The notes beneath the pieces are model-generated. The model saw only the letters and a list, made by a program, of their open reading frames with translations, was not told the DNA's origin and did no database searches. The translations under genes were made by a program, and so were the position numbers. From IMG/VR virus record IMGVR_UViG_3300042691_011410, positions 1 through 33,516 of that record: 33,516 nt of DNA; one strand, written 5' to 3'. Positions within the stretch are counted from its first letter, which is position 1; every line of letters starts with the position of its first letter. Below are positions 1 to 24,520 of the stretch, piece by piece. The stretch is from a virus.

Positions 1-867
1 AAAGTCATCACCATTTAAAGCGATAACTTCAGGCACTCGATTAGGGTCATCCACAAAATCAATAACCATAGAACCCGCTGCATCAGTTGGCGTGAACTTA
101 TTTTTCATTCGCTTTTCAACTGATTTCATTTCCTCATCACTTGGCACACCGTTTTTAAATACAATCATTCGACTGCCCTTAAATCCGTTTTGTATTTCTG
201 CTCTGTGGAAATTAGCTATTTCAGCATCTGTAATAATAGCAGGTACAGCTCCGATATATTCAGGTAGCGTGTAAGTCTTTATGTTTGGCCTATATGATTT
301 GAAGTAATATATAAACTCTTTTTGTTTTTTGCTCGTATTAATGCCGGGTATAGTAGTGATTTCACCTTCTTTGAAATTGGTCCTTTCGCTTCCATCTTCA
401 TTTAACCAACAGTCCGATTTGTAGAACTCTGTATTATCTGAATTGCTTCTAATTTTGGTATAGTCTACATGGTATAATTCAACAAGGTTGCCCGTTGCAT
501 CATTCACCCCATACAAGTAAAACCCACCAAAGAGAATTTCATCTAGTCCTACCTTGTTTAATATTTCATCAAGTGATTCGTACGGGTTAGGGTTGTCTAT
601 AAACGCTTGCAACTTTGCCACATCATCACCTTGCATCCCATCTTGTGAGAATGTTACCCCTTGCCCTTTTATGTATAATTGTTTTGAAGTAGAAATAGCA
701 TTATGCTTTGCACTCCGATTAAACAACGTAACTAAAAATTCAGGATAGTCGTTTTGGTCCCCGTACTTTACAAACTTTAGTTTGTTGCTGCTTTTAGGCT
801 CTTTAAATTCAGGTACTTTGTTATTGTCGAATTTAACAACTATGGTATTGTTTTTAAAATCACTCAT
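1..867 (-). CDS. Phage portal protein (C-terminal part cut by window edge)
   Basis: The frame is open from an ATG at 867 to the left window edge with no stop, giving the first 289 residues. The portal is the dodecameric ring at the capsid vertex through which DNA is packaged and to which the tail attaches. Visible hallmarks are an early segment reading NAISTSKQLYIKGQG and a later one reading ANFHRAEIQNGFKGSRMIV, both typical in my experience of Bacteroidota phage portals. The start overlaps the end of the upstream 137-residue gene by 8 bases, so the two are probably co-translated. It lies far downstream of the terminase with the whole tail module between them, which is unusual. Identification is by pattern recognition, not alignment; the C-terminal half is unseen. 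Confidence 0.82.
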   Translation of the reverse strand, partial: MSDFKNNTIVVKFDNNKVPEFKEPKSSNKLKFVKYGDQNDYPEFLVTLFNRSAKHNAISTSKQLYIKGQGVTFSQDGMQGDDVAKLQAFIDNPNPYESLDEILNKVGLDEILFGGFYLYGVNDATGNLVELYHVDYTKIRSNSDNTEFYKSDCWLNEDGSERTNFKEGEITTIPGINTSKKQKEFIYYFKSYRPNIKTYTLPEYIGAVPAIITDAEIANFHRAEIQNGFKGSRMIVFKNGVPSDEEMKSVEKRMKNKFTPTDAAGSMVIDFVDDPNRVPEVIALNGDDF

Positions 868-1273
868 AAATTATTGTTTGGCTTGCTTGTGGTGTATAGG
901 TGTGGGTTACTTGCTCGGCAGGTACTACCCAAACCAATCCCGTTTCAACTTGTTTCACTATATTCTCAACCGCTTCTGATGCATCTGTTAACCCCGTTGT
1001 ATTCTCTAGGTCAGTTTGAAAAATATAATAATCATAAAAGCCCTCATGCTCTAGTTCAACTTCACCATCTAATGTGTCGGGGTTAGTTGTTTCTGTTACT
1101 TCAAAACGGTTGTAGCGTCTTAAATAGGCTGATGTATCAGTTGCTATAAAGTAATATGATACTTGGCTTTGCTGATTGACAAATTGAAACAAATAAATAG
1201 GATTGGCTACTGTTGAATTTTCAAACAGAGTAACCGTTACTGTATTGGTTTCACCTTTATTTATCCTAATCAT
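860..1273 (-). CDS. Small virion-associated protein of unknown function next to portal
   Basis: A protein of 137 residues, rich in beta-prone sequence (Thr, Val, Tyr, Phe) and acidic, without membrane segments or signal peptide. I recognise the type as a frequent neighbour of portal or capsid genes in Bacteroidota phages but know no function. It begins a new transcription segment: a strong terminator and then a bipartite promoter-like motif lie directly upstream, with only 6 bases between the motif and the ATG. It overlaps the portal start by 8 bases. A head decoration, connector or tail component are all possible. Confidence 0.7.
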   Translation of the reverse strand: MIRINKGETNTVTVTLFENSTVANPIYLFQFVNQQSQVSYYFIATDTSAYLRRYNRFEVTETTNPDTLDGEVELEHEGFYDYYIFQTDLENTTGLTDASEAVENIVKQVETGLVWVVPAEQVTHTYTPQASQTIIYE

Positions 1274-1279
1274 TAACTA

Positions 1280-1306
1280 TAAGTATAAACACCTTAAAAT
1301 TTTGTT
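1280..1306 (-). promoter_or_regulatory. Candidate phage late promoter, copy 1
   Basis: On the minus strand the sequence reads AACAAAA, 12 bases, TATACTTA, then 6 bases to the ATG at 1273. It is one of four copies with identical spacing, all upstream of virion genes. This copy starts three bases after the U-tract of an intrinsic terminator, exactly where transcription would have to restart, which favours a promoter over a coding coincidence. Confidence 0.6.
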
Positions 1307-1308
1307 AT

Positions 1309-1332
1309 AAAAAAAGGGGACCGAAGCCCCCT
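1309..1332 (-). terminator. Intrinsic terminator after probable tail tube gene
   Basis: The minus strand folds into a 7-bp stem (AGGGGGC with GGTCCCCT partners, one G-U pair) closed by a UUCG tetraloop with a C-G closing pair, and is followed directly by seven U. This is a textbook rho-independent terminator. It ends the transcript carrying the major capsid and the 172-residue protein. Confidence 0.9.
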
Positions 1333-1356
1333 TAATTAGAAAAGAAAATATAAAAC

Positions 1357-1875
1357 CTACACTTGCAACGCTGCTATGATAGTGGAATCAACCTCATTTG
1401 CGAATGATTTTTCCATCCCTGAGAATGTCAATTGATACCCTTGAAACTCATTCATTGCTTGCCCTGAGTTACCCGTTCCTGCTGATACTTCCATTCCGAA
1501 ATCTTTACCAAACAAAAAGTAAGTACCCGCCTTAGTTTCGCCTATAATTATAGTGCGATTCTTGATGATAAGTTCAAGTTTGATTTGGGTTTCGTATTGA
1601 AGTTTTACAAAGTTTGCAACGATACCCTGCTCATATGCCACCGTTCCAACTGTTGGGTCTGCTTGAATGTTTTGAGTAAAGTTGTTTTGTCCTCTAGGAT
1701 GTAACGCATACTTGAAGAACTTAGTTCCACTCGTCTTTGTTATGCCTGTCACGAATCCACTTGCATTCTCAGCAACGGCTGTAACATTAGCATGTTCTGT
1801 AATGTAAATATTTTTGATACCTGCTACTGCGTCTTTACAATCTAACGCGTATCCTGAAACTATTGCACAAGCCAT
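1357..1875 (-). CDS. Probable major tail tube protein
   Basis: A protein of 172 residues starting MACAIVSGYALDCKDAVAGI, a start I associate with a common Bacteroidota phage virion protein. It has no membrane segment or coiled coil and is composed of alternating beta-prone stretches, as expected of a tail tube or similar beta-rich virion protein. It follows the major capsid gene across a short GC-rich hairpin and is followed by a strong terminator, a pattern fitting an abundantly made structural protein. A head decoration or completion protein is the alternative. The ATG at 1875 is the only sensible start. Confidence 0.55.
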   Translation of the reverse strand: MACAIVSGYALDCKDAVAGIKNIYITEHANVTAVAENASGFVTGITKTSGTKFFKYALHPRGQNNFTQNIQADPTVGTVAYEQGIVANFVKLQYETQIKLELIIKNRTIIIGETKAGTYFLFGKDFGMEVSAGTGNSGQAMNEFQGYQLTFSGMEKSFANEVDSTIIAALQV

Positions 1876-1891
1876 ATTTGAATATTATTAA

Positions 1892-1910
1892 AGGGGGTTA
1901 TTAGCCCCCT
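1892..1910 (-). terminator. GC-rich hairpin between capsid and tail tube genes
   Basis: On the minus strand AGGGGG and CCCCCT form a 6-bp stem with a 7-base loop, followed by a weak U-run interrupted by A (TTTAATAA). It may be a leaky terminator or an mRNA-stabilising or processing hairpin that tunes the ratio of capsid to downstream protein. The poor U-tract argues against full termination. Confidence 0.55.
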
Positions 1911-1915
1911 GTGAA

Positions 1916-2857
1916 TTATAATGTTAACTTAACGATTTCGGTTGGTATTCCGATTTGAACGCCCATCTTGAATTTCATGCGCATGTTTACTGAATCGTAG
2001 TCTTCAGAATACCATACTTTCAATTCATCATCTTCGCCTTCAGCATCTACACCTAAGAACAAGTTTGAAGTTCTAGCTGCGTAAATCTTATTCTGTGAAT
2101 TCAATCCGTCAACAGGTACAATCTTTACGCTAGTACCGTGTAAGAAATACTCACCTAATGAATCAGTTGAAGCAACATAGTTGAATAAGTTTGCATTGAT
2201 TAACGCTGTTTGGTACATTCTGCTCAAGTCAGTTCCGATGAAGATTCTCAAGTCAGGCTTGTTCAAAATCTCAACAGGGATAGCGTTGTAAACACCTTGC
2301 AATACTGCGATAATGTTTGTAACTGTAATTGAAGTTACAGGTGTCATGTATGCTGATGCATTTGCTTGAACTACTCCTGATGCCGCATTGATGATTTTAA
2401 TTAAACCGTCAAACTTGTTCAATCCATCTTGCCATGCAGTAGTGTCTGATTGCCAAATAGCGATTTCTGTTTTTGCACCTTGCGCACCCATGATGTGTTG
2501 CATGAACGCTTGATCGATTCCACCTGGTAATGTTTCGTAGTTAGAACCTGGTGAAAGTAACAACTGAGTGTATTTCGCTTCAAGATCTGCGATACACCAT
2601 TGCTTTTCTACCTTTACTCTACCTACTGTAAGTACACGTGCTGTGATTGTAGTGTCACCTGATGCGTTTATTAAACCGCAAGTGCCACCTGTTTGCCAAA
2701 TCAAGTCATCATCCAAACGAGGAAGTTGAATTGAAGATTTTACGCCTGTTAACTTGCTCATTAATGATGCAGTCTTTGGCGAGAAGAATGACTCAACAAG
2801 CAACATTTGCTCATTGGTTTTGGTGTAATTAGCTAAACTAGCTGCTGAAATTGCCAT
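1916..2857 (-). CDS. Major capsid protein, HK97-like
   Basis: A protein of 313 residues that would form the icosahedral shell. Position supports the call: directly upstream lie a scaffold-like gene and an XkdF-type prohead protease in the classic protease, scaffold, capsid order. The N-terminus mentions a run of small residues and a conserved TNEQMLLVESFF-like helix; the C-terminus has the RMKFKMGVQIGIPTEIVKL strand typical of HK97-fold P-domain ends in Bacteroidota phages. There are no membrane segments. Only 12 bases separate it from the scaffold gene, so it is expressed from the same message. Confidence 0.88.
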   Translation of the reverse strand: MAISAASLANYTKTNEQMLLVESFFSPKTASLMSKLTGVKSSIQLPRLDDDLIWQTGGTCGLINASGDTTITARVLTVGRVKVEKQWCIADLEAKYTQLLLSPGSNYETLPGGIDQAFMQHIMGAQGAKTEIAIWQSDTTAWQDGLNKFDGLIKIINAASGVVQANASAYMTPVTSITVTNIIAVLQGVYNAIPVEILNKPDLRIFIGTDLSRMYQTALINANLFNYVASTDSLGEYFLHGTSVKIVPVDGLNSQNKIYAARTSNLFLGVDAEGEDDELKVWYSEDYDSVNMRMKFKMGVQIGIPTEIVKLTL

Positions 2858-2869
2858 AATTTTTTTTGA

Positions 2870-3460
2870 TTAATTTTGTCCTTTAAATTTTTTATACTCT
2901 GCGAAAAGTTCCGCTGTTGTTTTTCTTTCTTTTACTTGAATGTTGAATTTACCTGCGATTGGTTTAGGTGATTCTACTTCAGGTGCTTTTGCTATTTCGT
3001 CAACGATTGACTTAATAGCATCGAACTTGCCTTCTACACTCTGAGCAACTTCTAATGCCTTAGCGTATTCTTGCTTGCCCGATTTCATTTCTTCTGCTAT
3101 TGCTTTGATTTCTGCAACGATTGGTGCGATTGCGTCAATAACCGCTTGCACTACATCTTCAGTCATTGATGGTGGTACTTCTACTTCAACCTCAGCCAAT
3201 TCCTCTTCCTTTTCTTTTGGTTGAATAACTGTAACCAAACCTCCTAAAGTTGTAACAAGTGTTCCATCTTCTAGTTCATGTTGTGCGTCAGGTGCGGGTA
3301 GTGTGTTCCCGTCTTCAGCTACTACCAATAAAGCAGTACCTTCAGTTAGTTCACCTTCCCATTGAACAATAGTACCGTCTGCCAACTTTGCGTTGCCAAA
3401 CTCTTTTTCATTCCCCATTATAATGGTCTTTATTCTGTTAAATGCTTCTAATCGTGTCAT
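2870..3460 (-). CDS. Scaffold-like capsid assembly protein
   Basis: A 196-residue, strongly acidic protein between the protease and the capsid gene, the place of scaffolding proteins. Residues about 1-80 form a beta-rich segment with the motifs KLADGT and ELEDGT. A Glu-rich linker follows, then a predicted coiled coil at about residues 100-165, and a short basic tail (KERKTTAELFAEYKKFKGQN) that could bind capsid subunits. Scaffolds guide prohead assembly and are removed by the protease. A bipartite promoter motif lies 15 bases upstream of the ATG at 3460. Confidence 0.7.
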   Translation of the reverse strand: MTRLEAFNRIKTIIMGNEKEFGNAKLADGTIVQWEGELTEGTALLVVAEDGNTLPAPDAQHELEDGTLVTTLGGLVTVIQPKEKEEELAEVEVEVPPSMTEDVVQAVIDAIAPIVAEIKAIAEEMKSGKQEYAKALEVAQSVEGKFDAIKSIVDEIAKAPEVESPKPIAGKFNIQVKERKTTAELFAEYKKFKGQN

Positions 3461-3475
3461 ATGATTAATTTATTA

Positions 3476-3502
3476 TAAGTATAAACGTGTTTTATCTTTG
3501 CT
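3476..3502 (-). promoter_or_regulatory. Candidate phage late promoter, copy 2
   Basis: The minus strand reads AGCAAAG, 12 bases, TATACTTA, then 15 bases to the ATG at 3460 of the scaffold-like gene. Spacing within the motif is identical to the other three copies. It lies almost wholly in the gap after the protease gene. Confidence 0.6.
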
Positions 3503-3504
3503 TT

Positions 3505-4083
3505 TTAGTCCTCAATCTGTTTGATGATTTCGATTACTTGCTCAATTACCGATTGAGGTTTTTTGTCAATCTTAACGAGTCCGAAAGTACCTTCTACACT
3601 AAACCCCTTAAAGTCGCCCGTCTTAATAAAGTCATTCCAAACCTCGTCATTATCTACCTTGTAACTTCCAAACCAACTGCCATCCGTCAACTTGAATCCT
3701 GTTGGTGAATGAATACCACGTTTTGAATCAATCATGAAACTTTCAATCATGTAAACGCCATCAAAGAAGTTATTTTGATCGTGCATTCCATTTACTTGCT
3801 GTGTGAAATTCTTTTTATGAAACTTGTTTCGAACATTATAAATATCCTCACTTGTGAAGATTCCATAATACTCACCTGATTCATCACGCCTGTAAATAGG
3901 TAGGTCAGCTATCATCAATGCCCCGCTTATTATTCGTTTTTCTTTATCGGCTGCAAATCTTACTTGATTACTAAACGCCTGCCAATTAACTTCAATAGCA
4001 GGGTTATCTACTAAGGCAACTGCTGTAACCTCTGAATCATCATCCTCACCTACTACAAATCTGTATATTGGTAATTTCTCCAT
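3505..4083 (-). CDS. Prohead maturation protease, XkdF-like serine protease
   Basis: A protein of 192 residues that cleaves the scaffold and capsid precursor during prohead maturation. It shows the XkdF/S78-like layout: VALVDNPAIEV near residue 25, ISGALMIADLPIYR near 52, a candidate catalytic His at 101 (NGMHDQN) and a candidate nucleophile Ser at 162 (KGFSVEG). It directly precedes scaffold and major capsid. It has its own promoter-like motif 5 bases before the ATG. The second acidic member of the triad cannot be assigned with certainty by eye. Confidence 0.85.
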   Translation of the reverse strand: MEKLPIYRFVVGEDDDSEVTAVALVDNPAIEVNWQAFSNQVRFAADKEKRIISGALMIADLPIYRRDESGEYYGIFTSEDIYNVRNKFHKKNFTQQVNGMHDQNNFFDGVYMIESFMIDSKRGIHSPTGFKLTDGSWFGSYKVDNDEVWNDFIKTGDFKGFSVEGTFGLVKIDKKPQSVIEQVIEIIKQIED

Positions 4084-4088
4084 ATTCT

Positions 4089-4115
4089 TAAGTATAAGTC
4101 TATTTTACTTTTGCT
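4089..4115 (-). promoter_or_regulatory. Candidate phage late promoter, copy 3
   Basis: The minus strand reads AGCAAAA, 12 bases, TATACTTA, then 5 bases to the ATG at 4083. The upstream half overlaps the last codons and stop of the tape-measure gene. With so short a leader the mRNA would be nearly leaderless. Confidence 0.6.
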
Positions 4116-5860
4116 TTATTCTTTATGCCGTCTACCGTGTTTTGCGTCTTTGTTATGTCCGATTCTAATACATACACTCTATTATCTTGTGTCTTTATAT
4201 TACGGGTTACAATCGGCTCATTTGCGCCTTGTATTCTTATCCCTTGTGATATTGGATTAAATGAAGGTGTCCCGCCTCCTGTTGACGGCATAGTAGGCAT
4301 TGCGCCACCTCCACCAACTGCGCCACCTCCACCCGAGTTAGGAATTTGCACGGCCATTATTCGCCTAACACTAGCCAACCCAGCAGCAATAATACCCGCT
4401 GCCCCAATGAACCCGAATATACCACCTTGTGCTAGGGCCTTAGATGCACCAACATAAGTATTAATTGTTGCACTTGCTACACCTAAAGCCTTGCCTGCTG
4501 CTGTTTGTTGTCCTAATAAATCCGCAAAACCTGCCGCAGCGTTTGCAACCGTCATCATGTTATTGATTTTGGCTTGTGCTTCCTCGTCTGCTATTTTCTT
4601 TTTAGCATCTGCTGCTTGCTTGTCACTATAAACACCCCTTGTATTTAAGGATTCAATTATCTCAAGTTTCCTATCGGCTGCCGTTTGCTCAGTAGCCAAT
4701 TCATCTTGAAGTAATTTATCTGTACGCTCTTTCTGTTTAGCATACCTATCGTCAACTGCTTGTAATGATTTTTCAGTTTCCTTATTCTTTAACTTTTCAC
4801 GCCTTTCTCTATCTATTTCACTTTGTGCGTATTCGATTTTCTTGTTAAACTCGTCTCGTTTCCTTGCAATTTCATCACGCCTTTCTTGAACCTTTTGAGC
4901 ATCTTCATTAAACTTTTTAATTCGTTCTTTTTCTTTTTCGTCACGCTTTGTTCTTTCACCGTCTACGAAATTATTGTACTTAACCTCTTCAACAATCAAA
5001 TTATTCTTTAACTCTTTGAATTGTTTTAGTTCCTCTTTAGTCAACTCCCCATTTACTTTCAATCGTTTCCTAAGTGTTTCTAAATCGTTTTCAATCATTT
5101 GCTTTTTGGCGTTGTAGATTTCTTTCTCTTTTCCGCCTACCGCTTCCCAAATTTCGATTTGTTGCTTTAATGTTTCATTGGTCTTTAGGTTTTTCTTGTT
5201 CAATGAATCTAGTTCCCTGCCTGCTTGACTTGTTATACCTACAAAGTCAGTAACTGATTGAATGATATTGCCAAAGAATTTCCCAACCGTTTCAAGTCCG
5301 GGTATTAACTTTAAAACAAACGTGCTGAACTCTTTCCAATTTGCCACCAATAACCCGACTGCCACAGCTGCTGCACCTATTCCCGTTGCTATTATTGCAC
5401 CTCGTAAGGTACTAAATGCTTTGGTTACGTTACCTACTACCAATTTACCTAAGTCTGCAAAATCATTTTTGAACTCAATCATTGAATTAAGCCCTTGACT
5501 TAAGGCCATAGCGCCTTGTACTTTTACTAAGGTCTTTTGTAGGTCCTCACTTTCTGCACCAAACAAAGCCATTGCACCTTGCACCGCACTAAATCCCCCC
5601 GCCAATCCTCCAATAGTTCTCACGAATGGTGCGAACTTCTTTTCAGGATCAGCATTCTCAATCGCATCATTAACCCCTCTTATCTGTTCTCTTAATTGTC
5701 CCGCTTTAGCTGCTGCTTGTTTAAACGCATCACTGTTTGAATCGAGTGTGCCTAACTGTTTAGTCAGGTCCCTTAATTCACCTTTCAATCCTTTTATCGA
5801 ATTGGCACTTTGCCCCGTTTTTACTTCGGTTTCAAATATTATTTTTTCAGTTTCTGCCAT
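4100..5860 (-). CDS. Tail tape measure protein
   Basis: A protein of 586 residues that sets tail length and is ejected ahead of the DNA. Residues about 1-75 are helical with heptad-like spacing. Two hydrophobic segments follow, near 152-176 (AIIATGIGAAAVAVGLLVANW) and 476-500. Between them lies a long charged coiled coil rich in Lys, Glu and Arg. The C-terminus has a Gly-rich linker (SGGGGAVGGGG). This layout is classic. At about 1.5 angstrom per residue the tail would be near 90 nm. The protein starts 2 bases after the preceding stop, without a Shine-Dalgarno sequence. Confidence 0.87.
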   Translation of the reverse strand: MAETEKIIFETEVKTGQSANSIKGLKGELRDLTKQLGTLDSNSDAFKQAAAKAGQLREQIRGVNDAIENADPEKKFAPFVRTIGGLAGGFSAVQGAMALFGAESEDLQKTLVKVQGAMALSQGLNSMIEFKNDFADLGKLVVGNVTKAFSTLRGAIIATGIGAAAVAVGLLVANWKEFSTFVLKLIPGLETVGKFFGNIIQSVTDFVGITSQAGRELDSLNKKNLKTNETLKQQIEIWEAVGGKEKEIYNAKKQMIENDLETLRKRLKVNGELTKEELKQFKELKNNLIVEEVKYNNFVDGERTKRDEKEKERIKKFNEDAQKVQERRDEIARKRDEFNKKIEYAQSEIDRERREKLKNKETEKSLQAVDDRYAKQKERTDKLLQDELATEQTAADRKLEIIESLNTRGVYSDKQAADAKKKIADEEAQAKINNMMTVANAAAGFADLLGQQTAAGKALGVASATINTYVGASKALAQGGIFGFIGAAGIIAAGLASVRRIMAVQIPNSGGGGAVGGGGAMPTMPSTGGGTPSFNPISQGIRIQGANEPIVTRNIKTQDNRVYVLESDITKTQNTVDGIKNKAKVK

Positions 5861-5861
5861 G

Positions 5862-8729
5862 TTATAATTTTATAAATCTGTATCGTACTACTATCTCCAA
5901 TGTTCCGTCACCTCCGCTCAGGTTGCCACCTGCTTCTATTTCAATATCCAACGCTGCTTGTATAGGTTGGTCAAGTATTTTCATTGTTTGTATGCTATCT
6001 GATGCGCCTGAAACAAACGTGGCTGTAAACTCCCCTAAGTTTTCGCTTGAGTTCTTGACATAAATTTTATGACTTGCATAGCCCGCACCTGCTCTCAGTA
6101 CAGCATACCCATCCACAATCTGACAAACATAACCACTTGGCACTTCGATAATAGTTATTGGTGTGGTGTGAAGTATATCTAATTCAGCTTCGGTCAATAG
6201 TGTTCTTGAGGTGAAAGGTTCTTGACAATTATTGATTATTGTTTCACCGTTCAATGTTGCTGTTTGTCCCGTGCTACCTATTAAAGTTACATCGTCATTA
6301 TCTACATTATTGCCATTAGAACCTAATGCGGTTACGTTTGAACCATAAATAGTATTATCATCCCCATTTGTGATTGCCCCGTTACCTATTAGGTTATTTC
6401 CCTCACCTGCAACAAATCCGTTTGCGTCATATATTTGTTGGCCTTGTCCGTAAACATTACCGCTTTTACCTACTTGAACATTATACACGCCTACTGTTTC
6501 GCCACCTACTTCAACTCCACCCGCACCCGTTACTGTTATAGGCTCACCAACGAATTGATATTTTGTTGCTAATTTAAGAAACTCACATTTGATTGTGTCT
6601 TGACTATTTAGGTCATAAGTAATCGACTGTAAAATGTAACGCTGTCTATCTATTTGATAAAAACTTCTAAATGATAGATTGTAAATATCAACCTCGTTTA
6701 GGTGTAGATACATTTCAACTATACTACTATCTGGGTCTGATATCTGCTCAATGTAGGATTTCCAATACGCATTGAATAAAGTATTGTTAGTTACTAATGT
6801 TGGGTTGTAAAAAAACGTGTCAGGAATGCCCCAACTCAAGTCATTATCGGGTGCAATGTAATCATCATAATGACCAGCATATGGATAGTCATATATTGCC
6901 GTTTCCCCGTTTTCATTGGTTACTAAATACCACGGTGTTGTCGTATCGGTTAGAGTATATTTTTTATAAAACAATATTCTAGGCTTACCTGCTCGGCCTG
7001 TTGCCTTGCCTTGTGAATCAAAGTTTTGAATTGAACTCACAACCCTTGTATGACCTGAATAACTCGTTAATACAGTTGGTGCAAATCCGACTTCTATCTT
7101 TTCGGTATCGGTTACAAATTCATTTTCAACCTCAAACACTCTATGCCCATAGGTATATTCTGATTGACGCTGATAGTCTTTATTATAAACATCTTCATCC
7201 GCTTTATATTGGTAGGTGTATCTTTTATTCTTTAACGCCCCAACGGGTTTTATGGTTATGTCCTTTGAGTGGTCAACTTTATTAGTCCAATCAATTACTG
7301 AGTTGCTTTGATAAAAAGTGTTTCTCGGCTCAATGATTAATTTTCTATCATCGTACTTGTCAACTTCAATATACAGATTGAACATTTTTACAAGCCATAT
7401 TAAGAAGTCCGATTGTTTCAAGTCTTTCGGTAATACCCGATTCATGTCAACTGTGATGCGTTCAAAGAAATTCAAATCGGTGTTTGGAGTCATGTACCAT
7501 GTTGAACTGCTTCTAATATTCAATGCATCTGTAATGGTTAAAGGTGCTCCTGCTAAAAATCCATAATAGGGCCTATCAACATAAACATATATCTTATCCC
7601 CCGTTAAAAAGTCATTGAATATACCTGAATCTAGTGTTATCTCTATATTATTTTCTTGATTAATCGTAGTAAAAAACGACCTAGCAGTTGTACTATCTAA
7701 AGCAGTAAACACACCCCCTCTTAATCTTATTATGGTTACAGTTTGCCAAATAGTTACTACGTTTATCGGTGAAGTGTTTTTTATCGTACACTCTAAAAAT
7801 ACTTTGAACTTATAACTCCCTTGTGTGTCTGCATTGTATCCGTAAAAATAACCTGATGCATCTAGTCCGCTTGGAGTTGTGTCTTGAACGATATTATTGA
7901 ATGGTACTGTTGCTGCGATTCTACCTGATAGTGGGTTTAAATTAATGTAATCACTATTGCTCAAATAGCCCGTTGTTGCGTCTAGCAGAAACTCAAACGA
8001 CCTATCCTGAACCTCTGTTTCGCTTAATTTGAATTGCCCACCGTTGTAAGGCATGATGAGGGATTGGAATATTTCGCCACCCAAAAAAGTGCTGTCATAT
8101 GTATAGCCTGCATTATTAATCATTAGTGTAATTAAATGTGCAACCTTAACAGCAGGGTATAAATTGCTCAGTTTATAATAGTCTTGATTTTTAACTTGAC
8201 CGTAATCAATTAAAGGGTAAACGTATGGATTAGAAAAAGCCCAACTAGCTACAACATTCCCATAAGTTAAAGTATGATTAAGGTCTGAAAGGTCAATATC
8301 AGACATATACTTCCCGTCAATATCGCTGAAGATATTTTTAACCCTACCAATAAAGTTTAACTCATATTCAATCGAACCGTCATCCAACTTTAAAACATTA
8401 ACCAATTGAAGATACCCTGAACTTTGCAAAACATTGTTTCGGTATAAATACGAATTAGCTCGATAATTAGCGTTGAATGCTGTGTTAAAATTAACCCCAC
8501 TTTCATTCGTGGTGTAACGTGCTAAATCAAATACATAGTTAAATATCTTATTGTTATTCGCAGTACCCGGCACTTTAATTGTTTTGGTATAATCTGCAAC
8601 CCTGCTCTGAGGGTCGCTAATATCCGAAATCTGTTTCGTTAACTCTAAAGGTACGTCATCATACAAGTCAACATTGTAATTGATTATACCGCTTGCATTA
8701 TCGTATATTACTAATTTAGTTTCTATCAT
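5862..8729 (-). CDS. Large tail/baseplate protein with beta-roll-like C-terminal segment
   Basis: At 955 residues this is the largest protein here. The N-terminal region (about 1-160) is a conserved Bacteroidota phage tail-tip type with the segment DISDPQSRVADYTKTIKVPG, and the middle (about 420-700) resembles a hub or baseplate protein. Near residues 760-840 the sequence becomes short Gly-Asn-rich repeats (EGNNLIGNGAITNGD, NTIYGSNVTALGSNG), as in YadA-like head repeats or other left-handed beta-rolls, followed by a beta-rich cap. That arrangement suggests a stalk with host-contact tip. It overlaps the upstream tail gene by 4 bases (ATGA). Exact role is not certain. Confidence 0.72.
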   Translation of the reverse strand: MIETKLVIYDNASGIINYNVDLYDDVPLELTKQISDISDPQSRVADYTKTIKVPGTANNNKIFNYVFDLARYTTNESGVNFNTAFNANYRANSYLYRNNVLQSSGYLQLVNVLKLDDGSIEYELNFIGRVKNIFSDIDGKYMSDIDLSDLNHTLTYGNVVASWAFSNPYVYPLIDYGQVKNQDYYKLSNLYPAVKVAHLITLMINNAGYTYDSTFLGGEIFQSLIMPYNGGQFKLSETEVQDRSFEFLLDATTGYLSNSDYINLNPLSGRIAATVPFNNIVQDTTPSGLDASGYFYGYNADTQGSYKFKVFLECTIKNTSPINVVTIWQTVTIIRLRGGVFTALDSTTARSFFTTINQENNIEITLDSGIFNDFLTGDKIYVYVDRPYYGFLAGAPLTITDALNIRSSSTWYMTPNTDLNFFERITVDMNRVLPKDLKQSDFLIWLVKMFNLYIEVDKYDDRKLIIEPRNTFYQSNSVIDWTNKVDHSKDITIKPVGALKNKRYTYQYKADEDVYNKDYQRQSEYTYGHRVFEVENEFVTDTEKIEVGFAPTVLTSYSGHTRVVSSIQNFDSQGKATGRAGKPRILFYKKYTLTDTTTPWYLVTNENGETAIYDYPYAGHYDDYIAPDNDLSWGIPDTFFYNPTLVTNNTLFNAYWKSYIEQISDPDSSIVEMYLHLNEVDIYNLSFRSFYQIDRQRYILQSITYDLNSQDTIKCEFLKLATKYQFVGEPITVTGAGGVEVGGETVGVYNVQVGKSGNVYGQGQQIYDANGFVAGEGNNLIGNGAITNGDDNTIYGSNVTALGSNGNNVDNDDVTLIGSTGQTATLNGETIINNCQEPFTSRTLLTEAELDILHTTPITIIEVPSGYVCQIVDGYAVLRAGAGYASHKIYVKNSSENLGEFTATFVSGASDSIQTMKILDQPIQAALDIEIEAGGNLSGGDGTLEIVVRYRFIKL

Positions 8730-9895
8730 TGTGATTGAGTGTATCTATCGTATGAGTAATTGAAAGTCAATGTAACATTATGCAACTGTCTCCCGTTTGA
8801 AAATTTGCGTTTCTCATAACTCGAATTGGTTACGTTTATAGCTATCATAACGGGCGTTAACTCGGTTGGGTTTTGTCTTTCTAAAAATACAACAGGTGAA
8901 GTGAATAGGTTTTCAATCCACTCGGCTACATCATCACTTACCCAATCACTATTGATTGTAATCTCGTCTGTGATTCTAGTATTGTAAGGTGTTACTAATC
9001 TATCACTAACTGCATAAGGCATCGACTGAATCTTTTTAAATGACTTACGGTCTATATTTATTGATTGAGTGTCTACCTTTGTGAAGTTGTAGCTATCCCA
9101 CCCTCCTAATGTATTTAACCAATGAAGCCTAAATGTTTCGTATTTGCCACATGGTGCATTCACGTTTAATAACTTAGTACATAACACTTGGTCGAATTGG
9201 TCCTTTAGTTGTATAGTGTATTCGCCCGTTTCGTATAGATTTGGTGCTGGGAAAAATACTGACATTAAAATAGTTGGTACTACATTGTATTTGAACTTGC
9301 CTGATGTTGGTGTGATAACCTCAGAATATTCCTCACCTTTTAAAATAGTTATCTTACGCGTTATTCCTGATGGGTCAAAGTAACTCCATAGCACTTTATC
9401 CCCTTGCTCGATTTGTTGGGTTTCAGTTTCGTAAGTTAGGAACCCGAAATTGTCAGTTCTATATTCATTCATCACATCCCCAATCGCATCCTCAAAACCA
9501 AACACTAAATTATAAGCATACTTGTAATTGGATGACGGGTTACGTGCTAAGTTGGTGTAGAACGTCAAAGCTATTCCAACATCATAAGCCTCACCGAATT
9601 GCACAAAGTAATCTATTTGTCCGTTTAGGTCGGGTGTTACTGATGAGCCAAACCCGAATTGATATGTAACATAGTTTTTAATTACGTCTGAAATATCAAT
9701 CGTTACACTTGTCGAACCTAATTGTTTAGGGTATAGTAAACGGGCTGCCAATACATCAACTCCACTAACCCTCACATAAACATCTGCCACAAAGTAGAAG
9801 TTTGGTTGTGCGGTGTTGTTGCTCGATATATTAAACAGCATTTGGTTATACGCTGCTGAATGCGTATTGGTAGAACTATTTATTGTTATTGCCAT
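8726..9895 (-). CDS. Tail protein, probably distal tail or baseplate component
   Basis: A 389-residue protein rich in Thr, Asn, Tyr and Val with no membrane segment, typical of beta-structured virion proteins. I recognise it as a usual neighbour of the large 955-residue tail protein in Bacteroidota phages. It lies between a tail-completion-like gene and the large tail protein, overlapping both by a few bases, so it is part of the tail operon. No catalytic motif is seen. Distal tail protein is a guess from position. Confidence 0.62.
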   Translation of the reverse strand: MAITINSSTNTHSAAYNQMLFNISSNNTAQPNFYFVADVYVRVSGVDVLAARLLYPKQLGSTSVTIDISDVIKNYVTYQFGFGSSVTPDLNGQIDYFVQFGEAYDVGIALTFYTNLARNPSSNYKYAYNLVFGFEDAIGDVMNEYRTDNFGFLTYETETQQIEQGDKVLWSYFDPSGITRKITILKGEEYSEVITPTSGKFKYNVVPTILMSVFFPAPNLYETGEYTIQLKDQFDQVLCTKLLNVNAPCGKYETFRLHWLNTLGGWDSYNFTKVDTQSINIDRKSFKKIQSMPYAVSDRLVTPYNTRITDEITINSDWVSDDVAEWIENLFTSPVVFLERQNPTELTPVMIAINVTNSSYEKRKFSNGRQLHNVTLTFNYSYDRYTQSQ

Positions 9896-10508
9896 TGATG
9901 TCCTTTTTAATGTTTGATGTGATTGTCTTTGCCATGCCTGTTGCTAACTGTTTGGCGAACGCTGTATTTCTTGCTTTGTTATTAGCTGCTTCTACATAGT
10001 TAACGGGTTTAATTCCGCCTATCTTTGTGCGAACGGCCAATGTCCTTGCTGCCTTTTCTTGCTCACTTAATGCGGTTTTTCTTTTCTTACCTTTAAAACT
10101 CATCTGCACCCCGTCAACATTTTTAATCCCCGTTCTGGCTATCCACTTTTTGAAAGAATTTACCATCGCAGGGGGTGTACTTAAGTTCTTAAACTTGTAC
10201 TTTGATTGTGGGGCCTTGTTATATTTAACACCCCTCACGCCCTTGTCCACATAATCATGATATGCTTCGTTACTTATAGTGGTTATGCTTACTGAATTAG
10301 GACTAACTGATACTGGCCTATTCTCAATGCCTTGTGCCAATGTGGACCTTGTTCCCGTTTTAGTCTTTGCCCATATCTTTTTACGCATCAACTCAATACC
10401 ATCATTGCAATGCTTAATCAACAAGTCCTCAATCACATTAGCTGAGGCCGTTGCAAAGTCCGATATTGAACTACCATATTTATTCCCTATGTCTTTAGGT
10501 GTTGCCAT
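9876..10508 (-). CDS. Tail completion / HK97 gp10-like structural protein (tentative)
   Basis: A 210-residue, very basic protein (many Lys and Arg). Residues 83-97 (AYHDYVDKGVRGVK) recall the signature of gp10-like tail-completion and minor structural proteins, which often carry an N..Y..yVE/DxG motif after a central beta hairpin. It starts inside the end of the frameshifted chaperone frame (14-base overlap) and ends inside the next tail gene. The basic C-terminal third may contact DNA or another virion protein. Confidence 0.55.
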   Translation of the reverse strand: MATPKDIGNKYGSSISDFATASANVIEDLLIKHCNDGIELMRKKIWAKTKTGTRSTLAQGIENRPVSVSPNSVSITTISNEAYHDYVDKGVRGVKYNKAPQSKYKFKNLSTPPAMVNSFKKWIARTGIKNVDGVQMSFKGKKRKTALSEQEKAARTLAVRTKIGGIKPVNYVEAANNKARNTAFAKQLATGMAKTITSNIKKDINGNNNK

Positions 10509-11261
10509 TGCGTCTCATTGCCCTTTCATGTAATTGCCTATCATGCTCATTCTTGTCTTTATAAAACACAACCGTATTCAAGAACTCAGTCACATTCATT
10601 TTGAAAAAGTAATTCCATTTAGTAGCGTCATTATTACTCATGTCGTTAATGATTGCAACCCATCCCCATTTTGAGTAGAACTCAGATATTTCTCCTGTAC
10701 CATCTTCACTGCTTTCATCGCTTCTGATTCCAAAAAGAACAGGGTAGCTTCGGTTAATTCCTGATAGTACTTGCAAAAAAAAAGCATGATTGGATAGGCT
10801 TGTGATATTTTCATTTGATTGTAAAACAAGTCGGCCCGCTCTTTATGAGTAGTTCCGTTGTATGGTTTTTCACGCCCCATCCAATCCAATTCAACTGATA
10901 TGGCTGCAAGTATGTTATGAATGTTGTTGATGATTTGGTCTTTGTCTTTACTAAAGTGGCATGAATCAATGTACTGTTCTGCTGTTAGTTCTTGCTGCTT
11001 CCATTTTATCTTAAACTTTTTGCCACCTATTTTGATTTTCATCTTTACTTTGGCGTTTGGTTCAAGTGATTCGATACTTGCTAACCTCTTTACCTTTTCG
11101 ATAACATCCCCGACCGGCATGGATTCAATTTCGTCAACTGTCTTATTTTCAATCTCTGCAACCATTTTCAAGTTGCGCATGAATGGATCTGATTCAAGTT
11201 CAGTAATCGAACGAATCTTTAAAAACTGTTTAATGGTCAAGTCGTAGTAATTCCCTATCAT
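10495..11261 (-). CDS. Tail assembly chaperone, -1 frameshift fusion (lambda gpGT-like)
   Basis: A -1 slip on the U-run at 10776-10782 joins the first 162 codons of the chaperone to the overlapping frame that ends at 10495, giving about 255 residues. The added 93-residue part ends with the segment WNYFFKMNVTEFLNTVVFYKDK, typical of gpT-like C-terminal domains of Bacteroidota phages. The downstream frame has no ATG near its beginning and no sensible independent start, so it is best explained as a frameshift extension. The ratio of the two products normally matters for tail assembly. Confidence 0.8.
10638..11261 (-). CDS. Tail assembly chaperone, short form (lambda gpG-like)
   Basis: A 207-residue protein, mainly helical and charged, just downstream of the terminase. 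Tail chaperones coat the tape measure and recruit tail tube subunits. The assignment rests on a programmed-frameshift signal within it: a run of nine U preceded by C on the mRNA at 10775-10783, containing the heptamer U UUU UUU in the zero frame. Ribosomes that do not slip make this form, ending at 10638. A bipartite promoter motif lies 5 bases before the ATG at 11261. Confidence 0.78.
   Translation of the reverse strand: MIGNYYDLTIKQFLKIRSITELESDPFMRNLKMVAEIENKTVDEIESMPVGDVIEKVKRLASIESLEPNAKVKMKIKIGGKKFKIKWKQQELTAEQYIDSCHFSKDKDQIINNIHNILAAISVELDWMGREKPYNGTTHKERADLFYNQMKISQAYPIMLFFCKYYQELTEATLFFLESEAMKAVKMVQEKYLSSTQNGDGLQSLTT
10776..10782 (-). promoter_or_regulatory. Programmed -1 frameshift slippery site U_UUU_UUU
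   Basis: In the zero frame the codons are CUU UUU UUU UGC, so the heptamer U UUU UUU is correctly phased for tandem slippage; after slipping, the next codon is UUG and the frame stays open to 10495. This is the most common arrangement for siphovirus tail chaperones. Confidence 0.82.
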
Positions 11262-11266
11262 AACCT

Positions 11267-11293
11267 AAAGTATAAAAGGGTCGGTATTTTGCT
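11267..11293 (-). promoter_or_regulatory. Candidate phage late promoter, copy 4
   Basis: The minus strand reads AGCAAAA, 12 bases, TATACTTT, then 5 bases to the ATG at 11261 of the tail chaperone. It occupies the gap after the large terminase stop. Only the last base of the second box differs from the other copies. Confidence 0.6.
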
Positions 11294-12470
11294 AAACCGA
11301 TATGGTCTTGTATTGACCGCTTGGCCTATTGTTTAATTTGTTCAATGCTACATATCTCAGCGCATCTAGTGTATGATTATACATGTCTATTGGTTTCCCG
11401 CTTAATTTGCCTGATGAATCCTTATCCCATGTGTAGCCCCTCAATTCTTTAATTAGATTGGTGCTATCTTTAGTGACATACAACTCATACCGCTTTAAGG
11501 TGTCAATACCTATCTTAACCGAATCAGGGCCTTTTGATGCAGGGAATATGTTGAACCCTTGCAACCTTAATTCCTCAATTGATTTCGGCTCGGCACTATC
11601 TGCTATTATTTCATTTCGCCCAAAGTTTAATGACTTCAAGTAATTGCCTATGTCATTGTTTGTCATGTTAGTTCTGAATAGCAACTCCCTTACATACAGT
11701 CTGCCCTCGTTTTTATAAACAGATACTAATGTAGTTGGGTCATTAGTAAACCCAAAGTCCATCCCATGTGATACTAACTTCGCCCCTTCAGGTATTACAT
11801 CAACTTGTTTCCAATTGTCATATACAACACCCTGCAAGCTACCAACCTCCCCCAATCCGTAAACCTTCCACCAATTCGCCCAATAGTCTGAATACTTGGC
11901 TTTCTCTTTGGCTTTCTCGATTTCCTTTATAATGGATTCGCTTAATGCCTCATTGTCTTTGTAAGTTAAAACAAGCAAGTCCGCATCTTGGTCATGCATC
12001 AACTCAGTATCAACCCAAAACTCCGATACGGGATTATAGTCCAACCAAATTTCATTTGATGTCCTTATGGCTAATTGTGAGTAGGATTCAAAGTCAACAT
12101 TATTGCACTCGTTAATGTATAGGATATTACGTCTTGCCCCTCTTAGCTTATCGGGTTGCTCGGCACTAAAGAACTCAATGAATGAACCGTTTGCAAACTT
12201 GTATGTAAGTAATGTCTTATTCCAATTCTGGTCAAAGAATCGGTTAGTTTGCTGCATGATTTTCAGAAAGTCTTTGATTGCACCACGCCTTAAATGTGGG
12301 ATGGTTTCGGCCACTACTGATATTTCCAACCCCGCTTGTTTTGTTGCCCTGTCAATCAGTATCGGCAAAATCCCAAAAGTTTTTCCTGCACTGGTCCCGC
12401 CTCTTATAATCTTGATACGCTTGTTTAGTTTGCGTAACTTACTTATGGCTGTGGTGTAAACGAAACTCAT
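11292..12470 (-). CDS. Terminase large subunit (packaging ATPase and nuclease)
   Basis: A 392-residue motor protein that pumps DNA into the prohead and cuts it. Walker A is GGTSAGKT at residues 24-31; Walker B with catalytic Glu is ILYINE at 116-121. The C-terminal RNase-H-like nuclease shows GMDFGFTNDPTT near 238 and EIIADSAEPKSIEEL near 288, supplying the acidic metal ligands. Length is normal for Bacteroidota phages. Its ATG overlaps the stop of the small subunit by 4 bases (ATGA), a coupled pair. Confidence 0.93.
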   Translation of the reverse strand: MSFVYTTAISKLRKLNKRIKIIRGGTSAGKTFGILPILIDRATKQAGLEISVVAETIPHLRRGAIKDFLKIMQQTNRFFDQNWNKTLLTYKFANGSFIEFFSAEQPDKLRGARRNILYINECNNVDFESYSQLAIRTSNEIWLDYNPVSEFWVDTELMHDQDADLLVLTYKDNEALSESIIKEIEKAKEKAKYSDYWANWWKVYGLGEVGSLQGVVYDNWKQVDVIPEGAKLVSHGMDFGFTNDPTTLVSVYKNEGRLYVRELLFRTNMTNNDIGNYLKSLNFGRNEIIADSAEPKSIEELRLQGFNIFPASKGPDSVKIGIDTLKRYELYVTKDSTNLIKELRGYTWDKDSSGKLSGKPIDMYNHTLDALRYVALNKLNNRPSGQYKTISV

Positions 12471-12880: not shown

Positions 12881-13192
12881 TTACTTTACAATATAAGTAT
12901 ATCTCAATACCCAATTACCGCCCCTTGTTATAGTTTCCCCATCTTGTGTGATTTCAAGTCTGATTGTTTCACGCCCTAAAGCATCAACTACTATGTTTAG
13001 TGTGTCGCCTACATAGTATAGGTCGGTGATTGGTACTTCACCATATTCAGTCCTTTTGTTTACTTGAATAGTAGCTGCTCTAAATGCCTGAACTGTTACC
13101 AACTTTTGAACTTTTGGCTTTGGTTGTGTTTCGTCTGCTTCTTTCTTGCATGATGCAAAAACTACTAAAGCGATTAAAATTAACTGTTTCAT
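12881..13192 (-). CDS. Small lipoprotein of unknown function
   Basis: From the ATG at 13192, whose first base overlaps the upstream stop as ATGA, this gives 103 residues. A longer in-frame start at 13219 would sit inside the methyltransferase gene and would put a basic non-signal leader before the signal, so I prefer the short start. MKQLILIALVVFASCKKE is a lipoprotein signal with lipobox FASC and Cys15. The rest is a small beta-rich domain. It could be a host-surface protein, for instance for superinfection exclusion, but nothing shows this directly. Confidence 0.7.
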   Translation of the reverse strand: MKQLILIALVVFASCKKEADETQPKPKVQKLVTVQAFRAATIQVNKRTEYGEVPITDLYYVGDTLNIVVDALGRETIRLEITQDGETITRGGNWVLRYTYIVK

Positions 13193-13845
13193 ATTATTGG
13201 GTTTTCGTTTATTTCCCATACCTTGTTATGTACTACATTGTATGAGTGTGGTTGTTTAATAGTATCTCTTACTGCATCTGTTACTGATTGAATGCCTGCA
13301 AACATTCCGAAAGGTATATCTAAGTCATTGCAGCAGTCATCAATTACTAGGGTGTTTGTGGCCAATGGTGCGTAATTAAGTATATCGGACTTCGCTACTT
13401 CATAAGAGTGGCCTCCATCAATGTAAACTATATCGAATTTCCTTTCAGATATTAAGTCAATAATATTTTCATCCGTGCTAAGTCCTTTGATTATTATCGG
13501 GTGCTTTAGATTAAACTTTTCATGGATTAGCTTTATGTCTGCTTTATAGTCTGATTCCCAATGGCCGTCTGTGGTGTCTAGTGGTGTTATTCCATAAATG
13601 TCGCATTCTTTATCAGCTAACTTAGCAAGCATCTGAATAAGTGCCAATGTTTGGCCCCTAAAAACTCCGATTTCTAAAAAGCTAAAGTGTTTAGGCATCT
13701 TATCCACTATCAGTTTCCACATCCAATAAAAGGACCGTTCACCAAATCCAAATGCGTTTTGCTCTACAAAGTCTCGAAGTTCTTTTAACTCCTGGACCTC
13801 GTTTGTTTTTTGACAGTAAAAGTCGTGTAGTTCTTTATGATTCAT
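13189..13845 (-). CDS. Class I SAM-dependent methyltransferase-like protein
   Basis: A 218-residue protein with the glycine-rich SAM loop FLEIGVFRGQTLALI near residue 55 and an acidic motif FDIVYIDGGHSYE near 140, as in the methyltransferase-24 type of sugar or small-molecule methyltransferases and hydroxylase-like relatives. It adjoins three glycosyltransferase genes and overlaps one of them by 11 bases, so it may modify a glycan, possibly on the virion or host surface. Target is unknown. Confidence 0.75.
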   Translation of the reverse strand: MNHKELHDFYCQKTNEVQELKELRDFVEQNAFGFGERSFYWMWKLIVDKMPKHFSFLEIGVFRGQTLALIQMLAKLADKECDIYGITPLDTTDGHWESDYKADIKLIHEKFNLKHPIIIKGLSTDENIIDLISERKFDIVYIDGGHSYEVAKSDILNYAPLATNTLVIDDCCNDLDIPFGMFAGIQSVTDAVRDTIKQPHSYNVVHNKVWEINENPII

Positions 13846-14422: not shown

Positions 14423-15189
14423 AACTTTACAAATATACTTTTTTCACCTGAAATAAATTTACGTTTCTCTTCATTGAACCTATCCATCATTTCCCCTGCG
14501 TACTTTCGTTTCCATTCCGTGTATGCATCGCCCCCCTCGTCTATGTGTTCAATCTCAATATGTGGTAGGAATGATAATTTAAAGCCTGCTATTTTAGCAC
14601 GTACTGAGGCAAGTGTATCATCAAACCCATAGATACCATCCATTTGATATAAGCCCCCTATCTTATCAACTAGTCTGTAATTAAACATCGTACAAGTACC
14701 CATTATATGTTCGGCATCTTCAACTATAATCCACTTTTGACCTTTAACGTGTGGCAACATTCTCAATTTAGTTCCCCATTGGTCGGCTCTGTGAGGTGTT
14801 TCCATCAAGTCTTTTCGTTTCAATCCCAATATTCCTATTGATATATCCCGTTCCAATGCTTCCTCCATCTCATCAACCCACCCGTCAATAAAAATATCCA
14901 CATCGTTATCCATTTTAATAACGTGTTCGCCATGTTCTCTTAACCTCCATGCCTGATTAATTGCTTTTGCAGTGCCAACATTCTCTTCATTGGTAATTAT
15001 TTTAATATGCTCACCGTATGAATGCCGTTTCAATATCTCTTTAGTTCTTGGGCATGATGCATTATCAATTACAATTAGTCTATGCTTATCAAAATCAACT
15101 GTTTCGATTAACATATCTAAAGTCCTTTGAGTGTAGTCAGTTCTTTTGTTTGCCTCTGTATCGTGGCATGCCATTGCTATAAGTGTCAT
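14419..15189 (-). CDS. Family 2-like glycosyltransferase
   Basis: A 256-residue GT-A fold enzyme. The N-terminal half has IVIDNASCPRTKEILKR near residue 39, NVGTAKAINQAW near 70 and the metal-binding DNDVD near 95; further on are GTCTMFNYRLVDKIGG and GFDDTLASVRAKIAGF, both typical of GT2 enzymes. Its stop overlaps the next start by 4 bases. Likely partner of the other glycosyltransferases in this operon. Confidence 0.85.
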   Translation of the reverse strand: MTLIAMACHDTEANKRTDYTQRTLDMLIETVDFDKHRLIVIDNASCPRTKEILKRHSYGEHIKIITNEENVGTAKAINQAWRLREHGEHVIKMDNDVDIFIDGWVDEMEEALERDISIGILGLKRKDLMETPHRADQWGTKLRMLPHVKGQKWIIVEDAEHIMGTCTMFNYRLVDKIGGLYQMDGIYGFDDTLASVRAKIAGFKLSFLPHIEIEHIDEGGDAYTEWKRKYAGEMMDRFNEEKRKFISGEKSIFVKL

Positions 15190-15700: not shown

Positions 15701-16755
15701 AATATTGATTTATAAATTTCTAATCTTGTTTTAGCCACCTTATCCATGTGGTATTCTTGAACGTATTCATGAAGTCTTATCGCTAATTCATCGACCAACT
15801 CAGGACTTTTAATCAACTTCATCATGTGTTTATACCAATCGTTCTTATGGTTAACTGCCAAACAATTCCACCCCCCTATGATGTCGGGTGAATAGGGTTG
15901 CACATTTGATACTATTACCGCTTTCTTTTTAAACCCCGCTTCCAATAGCTTTAGATTCGATTTAAGCGCATTAAACCTATTGTCCCGTAATGGTATCAAA
16001 CTGACATTAATATACTCGTAAAACTTAGCATAATTGAACGGGTCTGTTGAAGGGAAATAAGTAAACTGATTTGCTTTGGCCTTACCCTTGCATGACAATA
16101 TTCCTGCTATTGCTTCGCTGCTTCTTTCACCTGATGAATAACCCCCGTACACTACTCTAAACTTATCAATAACCGATTCATCTGAATAAAGTGAATACAA
16201 TGCATCATGTACTTCCATTACGTCATCAAAGTGAGTAATTGAACCACTCCATCCAAAATTAACTTTATCACCAAACACACACGGCTTTACTTCGAACTGT
16301 CCATCGGGTTCGATTCCGTTTGGAACTATAAAGATATTTTTTTGATTGGTTTCTTTTCTGATTGTGTCTGATAATAATTCTTGAGTACATGTAACAGCCA
16401 ACGCCCCATTGATTGATTCAATAATCTTTGCTGAATGCTTTTGTTCTTTTGCCGTTCCATAAAGGATATGCCATTCAGGAATACGATAGTCATCGTCTAG
16501 GTCCAATATATAAGGTACGTTGGCAAACTTCAACTTATTAATGACTGAGTAATTATCACCCATCTTACTGATGAAACGGTTTGCAACAATCAAATCGAAT
16601 CCTTTTAAAAACTCCTCTGTTGCTGAATCAATCTCATTTATAGTTGAAATCTCTATCTCTGGGTTATTCCTACCTATGTTAGCGTGAGGAATTAACAGCC
16701 TATGATAGTCAACTCCTGAAGGTTTAGGTTGCTGCGTTAATAGCAATATTTTCAT
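15697..16755 (-). CDS. GT-B glycosyltransferase, family 4-like
   Basis: A 352-residue protein with the two-domain GT4 layout. The N-terminal domain starts MKILLLTQQPKPSGVDYHRL. The C-terminal domain has FIVPNGIEP near 145, NFGWSGSITHFDD near 167 and KSNLKLLEAGFKKKAVIVS near 266, the donor-binding segment with a conserved Glu. It is the first of the sugar-modification genes after the sigma factor, overlapping that gene by 32 bases, so both are expressed together. Confidence 0.84.
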   Translation of the reverse strand: MKILLLTQQPKPSGVDYHRLLIPHANIGRNNPEIEISTINEIDSATEEFLKGFDLIVANRFISKMGDNYSVINKLKFANVPYILDLDDDYRIPEWHILYGTAKEQKHSAKIIESINGALAVTCTQELLSDTIRKETNQKNIFIVPNGIEPDGQFEVKPCVFGDKVNFGWSGSITHFDDVMEVHDALYSLYSDESVIDKFRVVYGGYSSGERSSEAIAGILSCKGKAKANQFTYFPSTDPFNYAKFYEYINVSLIPLRDNRFNALKSNLKLLEAGFKKKAVIVSNVQPYSPDIIGGWNCLAVNHKNDWYKHMMKLIKSPELVDELAIRLHEYVQEYHMDKVAKTRLEIYKSIL

Positions 16756-17200
16756 TCGCTTTTTGTTTTATTTTTTCTTTTACAAATCTAAGGGCCGAGT
16801 AACTTATACCCGTTTGGCGTTGCACCTCTGACATGTTGCCGTATTGATTATACAATAATACTATTCTGTTTTCAAATTCCGTTAACTCGATCATGAATTT
16901 TTCCGCTTCACGTATCAACAACTCAGTTTGAATTTCATTCTGTCCGAACTCAGGCAAAAGTTTTTCCTTTTTATTTAACAGTTTACCTATCTGTCCTGTT
17001 GGGTTTGACATGTTCGATGCTATCCGATAAAACCAAAAGTTAAAACGGTCAACTGGGGGCAACTTATCTTCATCAATTGTCAATACTAATAAGCACATTT
17101 CTTGAAACAAGTCATCACTCATTAAACTATTTATACGTCTGCATGTCTTTTTATAACTCGCATCGGTTGTGATTAGTGTAATGAGTTGCTCACGAATCAT
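16724..17200 (-). CDS. Phage RNA polymerase sigma factor (ECF-like)
   Basis: A 158-residue protein in sigma-70 style. A region-2-like part spans about 25-65 (SDDLFQEMCLLVL ... FNFWFYRIASNMSN); a region-4 helix-turn-helix spans about 105-145 (LTEFENRIVLLYNQYGNMSEV then GISYSALRFVKEKI). It would redirect host RNA polymerase to phage promoters, and four copies of a bipartite motif lie before virion genes as possible targets. A host-type promoter at 18165-18193 drives its operon. Regions 1 and 3 are absent, as in small sigma factors. A non-sigma DNA-binding protein is the alternative. Confidence 0.72.
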   Translation of the reverse strand: MIREQLITLITTDASYKKTCRRINSLMSDDLFQEMCLLVLTIDEDKLPPVDRFNFWFYRIASNMSNPTGQIGKLLNKKEKLLPEFGQNEIQTELLIREAEKFMIELTEFENRIVLLYNQYGNMSEVQRQTGISYSALRFVKEKIKQKANENIAINAAT

Positions 17201-24491: not shown

Positions 24492-24520
24492 CAAATATAA
24501 TCAAATAATCATAAATGCAA
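24492..24520 (-). promoter_or_regulatory. Host-type promoter of the small RNA
   Basis: TTG at 24520-24518, 18 bases, then TATATTTG at 24499-24492 on the minus strand, a full match to the Bacteroidota consensus. The -33 box overlaps the end of the DnaA-like gene. Transcription should begin close to the 5' arm of hairpin 1. Confidence 0.85.

Follow-up and report, generated by a model that had tools for sequence, protein, structure and literature searches.

Four sites in the record of an uncultured virus, 33,516 bases long (IMGVR_UViG_3300042691_011410; the whole analysed stretch is called the window here), are very probably phage late promoters, read by the phage's own compact sigma factor of the extracytoplasmic function (ECF)-like type. 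They share a two-part motif and stand directly before the genes of p207, the head maturation protease, p196 and p137. The candidate reader is a small sigma-like protein of 158 residues encoded in the same genome. Related phages have their own forms of the switch and, apparently, forms of the factor to match. These conclusions draw on sequence comparison and structure prediction.

The motif in the window and in related phages

The gene modules of the window lie on the minus strand, and RCAAAR-N12-TATACTTW occurs in exactly four copies, all on this coding strand (Table 1). Only 0.01 copies are expected from shuffles and 0/100 shuffles reach four. Thus, the four bipartite copies before virion genes that a preliminary description of this DNA had claimed are real, although the end coordinates given there were each one base too long. 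TATACTT by itself is only mildly enriched (16 occurrences vs 8.75 expected), and the signal is therefore carried by the two-part arrangement. When two mismatches were allowed, the motif showed no excess over chance in the window. The box ends 5 bases before the ATG of p207 and of the protease gene, 15 before that of p196 and 6 before that of p137, in line with the 5-15 bases described earlier. The difference from the host consensus was also borne out, as the host sigma-A type pattern TTG-N17..22-TAnnTTTG has six coding-strand matches in the window and none at the four sites. Host-type promoters in the window were not clearly above control, and a generic sigma-70 promoter scan of the window gave chance level.

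For comparison, about 300 related loci were collected from viral-contig scans with the terminase, the sigma-like protein, p207 and the glycosyltransferase; motif counts refer to distinct upstream sequences of orthologous starts under a strict pattern. The motif family was found to be a large group of uncultured Bacteroidota phages. The exact string of the window is nearly absent from these loci because box spelling differs by phage; its scarcity was considered as a refutation and rejected, since phage-specific spellings appear once the regions upstream of orthologous starts are read. The closest relative, L005 (terminase 83%), carries GCAA-N14-TATATTTA at all four syntenic positions. The core conserved among the relatives is [AG]CA[AT]-N14-[T/A][A/C]TA[T/C][T/A][T/A], so that the core of the motif as first described stands and the 'AR' of RCAAAR does not.

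The strict motif was present upstream of p207 in 58/62 distinct sequences, of the protease gene in 13/18, of p196 in 9/16 and of p137 in 12/13, giving 92/109 for the four genes combined. Most misses read AATATTT at unchanged spacing. At nine other genes (capsid protein, p172, tape measure, p955, p389, p210, terminase large subunit, glycosyltransferase and sigma) the count was 0/429, including 0/18 for the capsid protein. The comparison with related phages that had been proposed earlier hence returns the same four gene starts. Upstream of the terminase small subunit the motif was seen in 2/42 sequences, and one clade (L018, L036, L016) has an extra copy before this gene in its own spelling, TATATATT.

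Related outgroup contigs contain GCAAC-N13-CTACA before the protease and p196 genes. The view that this outgroup (terminase ~60%) is without the system was dropped, as a profile finds a sigma homologue and a related motif there; the diverged homologue of L063 (2078-2629) and L084 (6592-7146) has ~183 residues. L271 has a GCTATTT box on a contig without a sigma gene. Among cultured phages, tblastn matched neither the capsid protein nor the sigma-like protein; judged by terminase, the isolates that come nearest are Flavobacterium phages (56%). A terminase search of genomes returned only three contigs of metagenome-assembled genomes, none with a sigma match.

Concerted spelling, terminators and predicted transcript starts

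The spellings at the variable box positions are common to all sites of one phage and differ between phages (TATACT, TCTATTT, TATATTT, TATACTA). The window has TATACT at four sites, L273 has TATACTAA at four, L249 and L261 have TCTAT at four each, L223 has TCTATTT at three and L210 has TATATTTA at four. L258 (IMGVR_UViG_3300042868_002141) carries its own allele, an N13 AATAYTA-type box with the spacing one base shorter, at all four sites; its sigma-like protein has an odd loop, SKTG-CDKK. Such an in-step change at four separate sites implies that the box spelling is read by one diffusible, trans-acting factor.

The site before p137 directly follows an intrinsic terminator, as had been claimed, and a hairpin with a T run adjoins the motif at this position in 13/13 distinct phages. 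The hairpin sequences differ from phage to phage, an arrangement as expected for a promoter. Together with the restriction of the motif to the same four gene starts and the concerted spelling, these terminators strongly support the promoter function proposed for the motif. Across phages, the box lies 5-7 nucleotides (nt) before the ATG at most sites and 12-19 nt before it at p196. The sigma-A box TAnnTTTG has been mapped to -12 to -5 in Flavobacterium psychrophilum (PMC9723704). If the phage box is assumed to occupy the same place, leaders of 0-3 nt are predicted for p207, the protease gene and p137, and one of ~11 nt for p196. The near-leaderless mRNAs suggested before are thus predicted for three sites, and p196 departs from them.

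The small sigma-like protein

The sigma-70-like protein of the preliminary description corresponds to an open reading frame of 158 residues at the place indicated, and the assignment is upheld by its predicted sigma fold, its presence in 15/15 genomes examined and a suggestive covariation with the boxes. The AlphaFold2 model has a predicted local distance difference test score of 85.6 and a predicted template modelling score of 0.49, and its structural matches are mainly sigma factors. Residues 1-81 match domain 2 of sigma-E (4lup) and SigC at 2.5-3.0 A over 66-77 residues (Z 6.4), whereas residues 94-155 match domain 4 of SigD at 2.5 A over 62 residues (Z 7.7). The helix-turn-helix of sigma domain 4 is present; domains 1.1 and 3 are absent. 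The Z values of 6.4-7.7 are middling and the placement of the domains relative to each other is not reproduced in these matches. Helical folds can reach middling structural scores by chance, and weight is therefore carried by the conserved residues D30, Q33 and E34 and by the genetic context. D30 and E34 are invariant and Q33 is kept in more than 90% of the family, forming a DxxQE-type core-binding motif, the signature of sigma region 2.2. The ingroup shows no variation at S133, Y134, L137 and R138 of the recognition helix, and the GCAA element hardly varies either.

Early-region genes upstream of the sigma gene were each found in at most 10/15 genomes, which is a lower bound as the loci are partial. 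The sigma gene is followed in 15/15 genomes (window 15186-16755, minus strand) by a glycosyltransferase-like gene, a membrane-like protein of 78 residues and a basic-tailed protein of 93 residues. The last of these could be a co-factor.

Covariation with the boxes was read from 20 representatives. Arg68 is present in 4/4 phages with C at box position 2 and in 0/16 others, and it is the sole perfect column of the protein. Pro67 is present in 2/2 phages with C at box position 5 and in 0/18 others, tied with L75. The 2,517 columns of six control proteins included 4 and 12 perfect ones, or ~0.0016 and 0.005 per column. Residues 67 and 68 are adjacent and lie just past the helix that corresponds to sigma region 2.3/2.4. 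The pattern is suggestive of a link between the sigma-like protein and the boxes; as the loop was picked out after inspection of the data, no formal probability is claimed. In a tree with several weak branches, the window groups with L005 and apart from L013, from which it follows that TATAC arose twice. By parsimony, C2 changed four times and C5 two times. R68 is also carried by L085-L087, whose contigs end before the late genes.

Proposed mechanism and its weighing against alternatives

According to the preferred explanation, the two-domain phage sigma would redirect host RNA polymerase to the four late promoters. Recognition and opening of the -10 box (TATACTTA in the window phage) would fall to its domain 2, and recognition of the GCAA element upstream to its domain 4. 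Transcription would begin at the predicted starts, which leave 0-3 nt ahead of the ATG for p207, the protease gene and p137 and ~11 nt for p196. The capsid/tail module would have four places at which transcription is restarted, the one before p137 right after a terminator. We infer direct recognition, late timing, the start points and the takeover of host polymerase from the patterns described above. A fuller version, in which the compact sigma reads both elements with domain 4 at GCAA (~-30 to -27) and the family has repeatedly rewritten its whole late regulon through one or two residues (67/68) together with all -10 boxes, is offered as a tentative possibility.

Several observations weigh against this explanation. 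Pfam Sigma70_r2 matches 6/16 members of the sigma-like family, all below the cut-off (best E 8.5e-4), r4_2 matches one of 16, and the window's own protein has no such family match. The best PDB profile match of the protein reaches only E 0.015, and Foldseek gave no match below 0.001 for its model. Presence in 15/15 genomes is shared by the non-virion genes at 15697-16755, 15464-15700 and 15186-15467. In the covariation, Pro67 is tied with L75, and the independent changes are few, with one pair each on well-supported branches and a sign test out of reach. Moreover, GCAA starts 18 bp ahead of the box. A -35 element would normally lie ~4-5 bp further away, and contact by domain 4 therefore needs unusual geometry. 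GCAA may be contacted either by a closer-binding domain 4 or by a second protein. Linker length as the cause of the short spacing was weakened as a candidate, because the linker varies in length while the spacing is constant.

The second-protein option corresponds to an alternative in which the sites are late promoters whose box is read by the small sigma, while GCAA is bound by a MotA-like phage activator. The MotA box GCTT of T4 lies at -30 to -27 with a spacer of 11-13 nt to the -10 box (PMC1524935), the position of GCAA here, and two candidate binders exist, namely the 93-residue basic-tailed protein conserved near the sigma gene and a DnaA_C-type DNA-binding protein found in at least 10/15 genomes. 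The latter, at 24509-24847 on the minus strand, is a stand-alone DnaA C-terminal DNA-binding domain (PF08299, 5.7e-22). However, the sigma possesses a sigma-4-like domain of its own with an invariant recognition helix and no MotA-like protein was recognised, which makes such a helper unlikely. Still less probably, the motif would be an operator, bound by a phage transcription factor that works through sigma-A or an ECF sigma of the host, rather than a target of the phage sigma. The box TATACTTA partly resembles the host TAnnTTTG, and the concerted spelling would follow from any trans-acting reader, whatever its nature; against this, the best covariation of the box bases is with the sigma-like protein at residues 67/68, that protein is present throughout the genomes examined, and the host -33 TTG is not kept at the sites.

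An RNA-level translation signal or a translational operator before the start codon would suit the short distance of 5-7 nt to the ATG at most sites, and Bacteroidota are without Shine-Dalgarno signals (PMC9723704). Nevertheless, this reading is highly improbable, as the distance of 12-19 nt at p196 counts against it, the motif is missing from abundant virion genes such as that of the capsid protein, the p137 copy consistently adjoins terminators, and a rigid N14 between two short elements fits DNA recognition. As for chance or coding constraint, GCAA of the protease site falls within the last codons of the tape-measure gene, at its 3' end, and the p207 site shares bases with the stop codon of the terminase gene. 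Yet such an artefact has a negligible probability, being refuted by the relatives, in which the motif is absent at nine other genes; the copy number far exceeds that of the shuffles, and the motif is conserved at four non-homologous places, one of them entirely non-coding.

Genes of the capsid/tail module

The features of the window are collected in Table 1. p207 is likely a tail-assembly chaperone with a -1 frameshift into 10495-10776, judging from its architecture. Within 10495-11261 (minus strand) a T run is followed by an open reading frame in the -1 frame (10495-10776), which is kept in L005, and this putative frameshift adjoins the terminase rather than the tape measure gene. Judged by its position alone, p196 may be scaffold-like. 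The major capsid protein gene has no motif of its own and is presumably transcribed by read-through from promoter 3. A hairpin-like sequence, GGGGGCTAATAACCCCC, lies at 1876-1915 between the capsid gene and p172, and L005 has a similar hairpin; a possible role is that of an attenuator without a promoter after it. A short lipoprotein-like open reading frame precedes the terminase small subunit (12881-13219, minus strand) and is found in 0/15 relatives.

Table 1. Coordinates of the predicted late promoters, the sigma-like protein and associated features of the window.
Feature	Position	Strand	Description
Predicted late promoter 1, before p207	11267..11292	-	GCAA 11292-11289, box TATACTTT 11274-11267, ATG 5 nt on; exact motif
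Predicted late promoter 2, before protease gene	4089..4114	-	GCAA, box TATACTTA 4096-4089, ATG 5 nt on; exact motif
Predicted late promoter 3, before p196	3476..3501	-	GCAA, box TATACTTA 3483-3476, ATG 15 nt on; exact motif
Predicted late promoter 4, before p137	1280..1305	-	ACAA, box TATACTTA 1287-1280, ATG 6 nt on; exact motif
Intrinsic terminator hairpin	1314..1333	-	Directly upstream of promoter 4; hairpin and T run
Sigma-like protein	16724..17200	-	158 residues; sigma-2-like domain 1-81, sigma-4-like domain 94-155; candidate -10 reading residues 66-68
Terminase large subunit	11292..12470	-	Last gene before promoter 1; Pfam Terminase_3C 2.3e-24
p207	10638..11261	-	First gene after terminase large subunit; conserved in 15/15 genomes
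Head maturation protease (Peptidase_S78_2 / XkdF-like)	3505..4083	-	Pfam PF14550 1.5e-10; PHROG protease families
p196	2870..3460	-	Between protease and major capsid protein; no family match
Probable major capsid protein	1916..2857	-	phrog_1623 virion structural protein 2.6e-8; without own motif
p137	860..1273	-	First gene past the terminator; no family match

Relation to known systems

The proposed system works like those of T4 gp55 and of phiEco32/7-11, and by its promoter architecture it is a member of neither. With the T4 late system it shares a small phage sigma, a short TATA-type -10 box and virion genes as targets. However, T4 late promoters (gp55, with gp33 and gp45) consist of the TATAAATA box alone, whereas a second conserved element at a fixed N14 is present here, together with a sigma-4-like domain and predicted near-leaderless mRNAs, and the system here is not known to involve a co-activator or a link to a clamp. 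A diverged gp55, that of Aeh1, pairs with a diverged box, CTAAATA (PMC1524935). phiEco32 and 7-11 likewise have a phage sigma far from the main sigma family that serves structural genes, with promoters found by intergenic comparison (PMC4331800), but they use a single tAATGTAtA element in enterobacterial hosts. They also encode an anti-sigma, and none was recognised in the window phage. T4 middle promoters resemble the sites in the geometry of their upstream element, yet MotA is an activator that works with host sigma70, while the candidate reader here is a phage sigma.

Group IV (ECF) sigma factors such as E. coli sigma-E and M. tuberculosis SigL consist of sigma 2 and sigma 4 domains and are the top structural matches. 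The 158-residue protein differs from them by the absence of a significant sequence match, a short linker and a different spacing; an AAC/GGAAC-type -35 element at normal spacing was not found at the sites, where the upstream element is [AG]CA[AT], 18 bp start-to-start from the box. Flavobacterium sigma-A, from the same phylum, reads a box of comparable length and AT-richness, but the phage box is without TTTG and without the -33 TTG. A search of the open-access literature returned no late promoter system of such kind described for Bacteroidota phages.

Significance

Many natural sigma-promoter pairs whose differences match are available in this family. They provide a ready test of how sigma factors read a -10 box, and of the way in which a regulator changes in step with all of its sites. 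The pattern at residues 67/68, if true, would be a natural and readable code of sigma-promoter recognition. Standard promoters fail in this phylum, and a compact sigma together with its promoters could also be put to use there for orthogonal expression. Near-leaderless virion mRNAs would furthermore be unusual in hosts in which only ~5% of mRNAs are leaderless (5.5% in a Flavobacterium host; PMC9723704).

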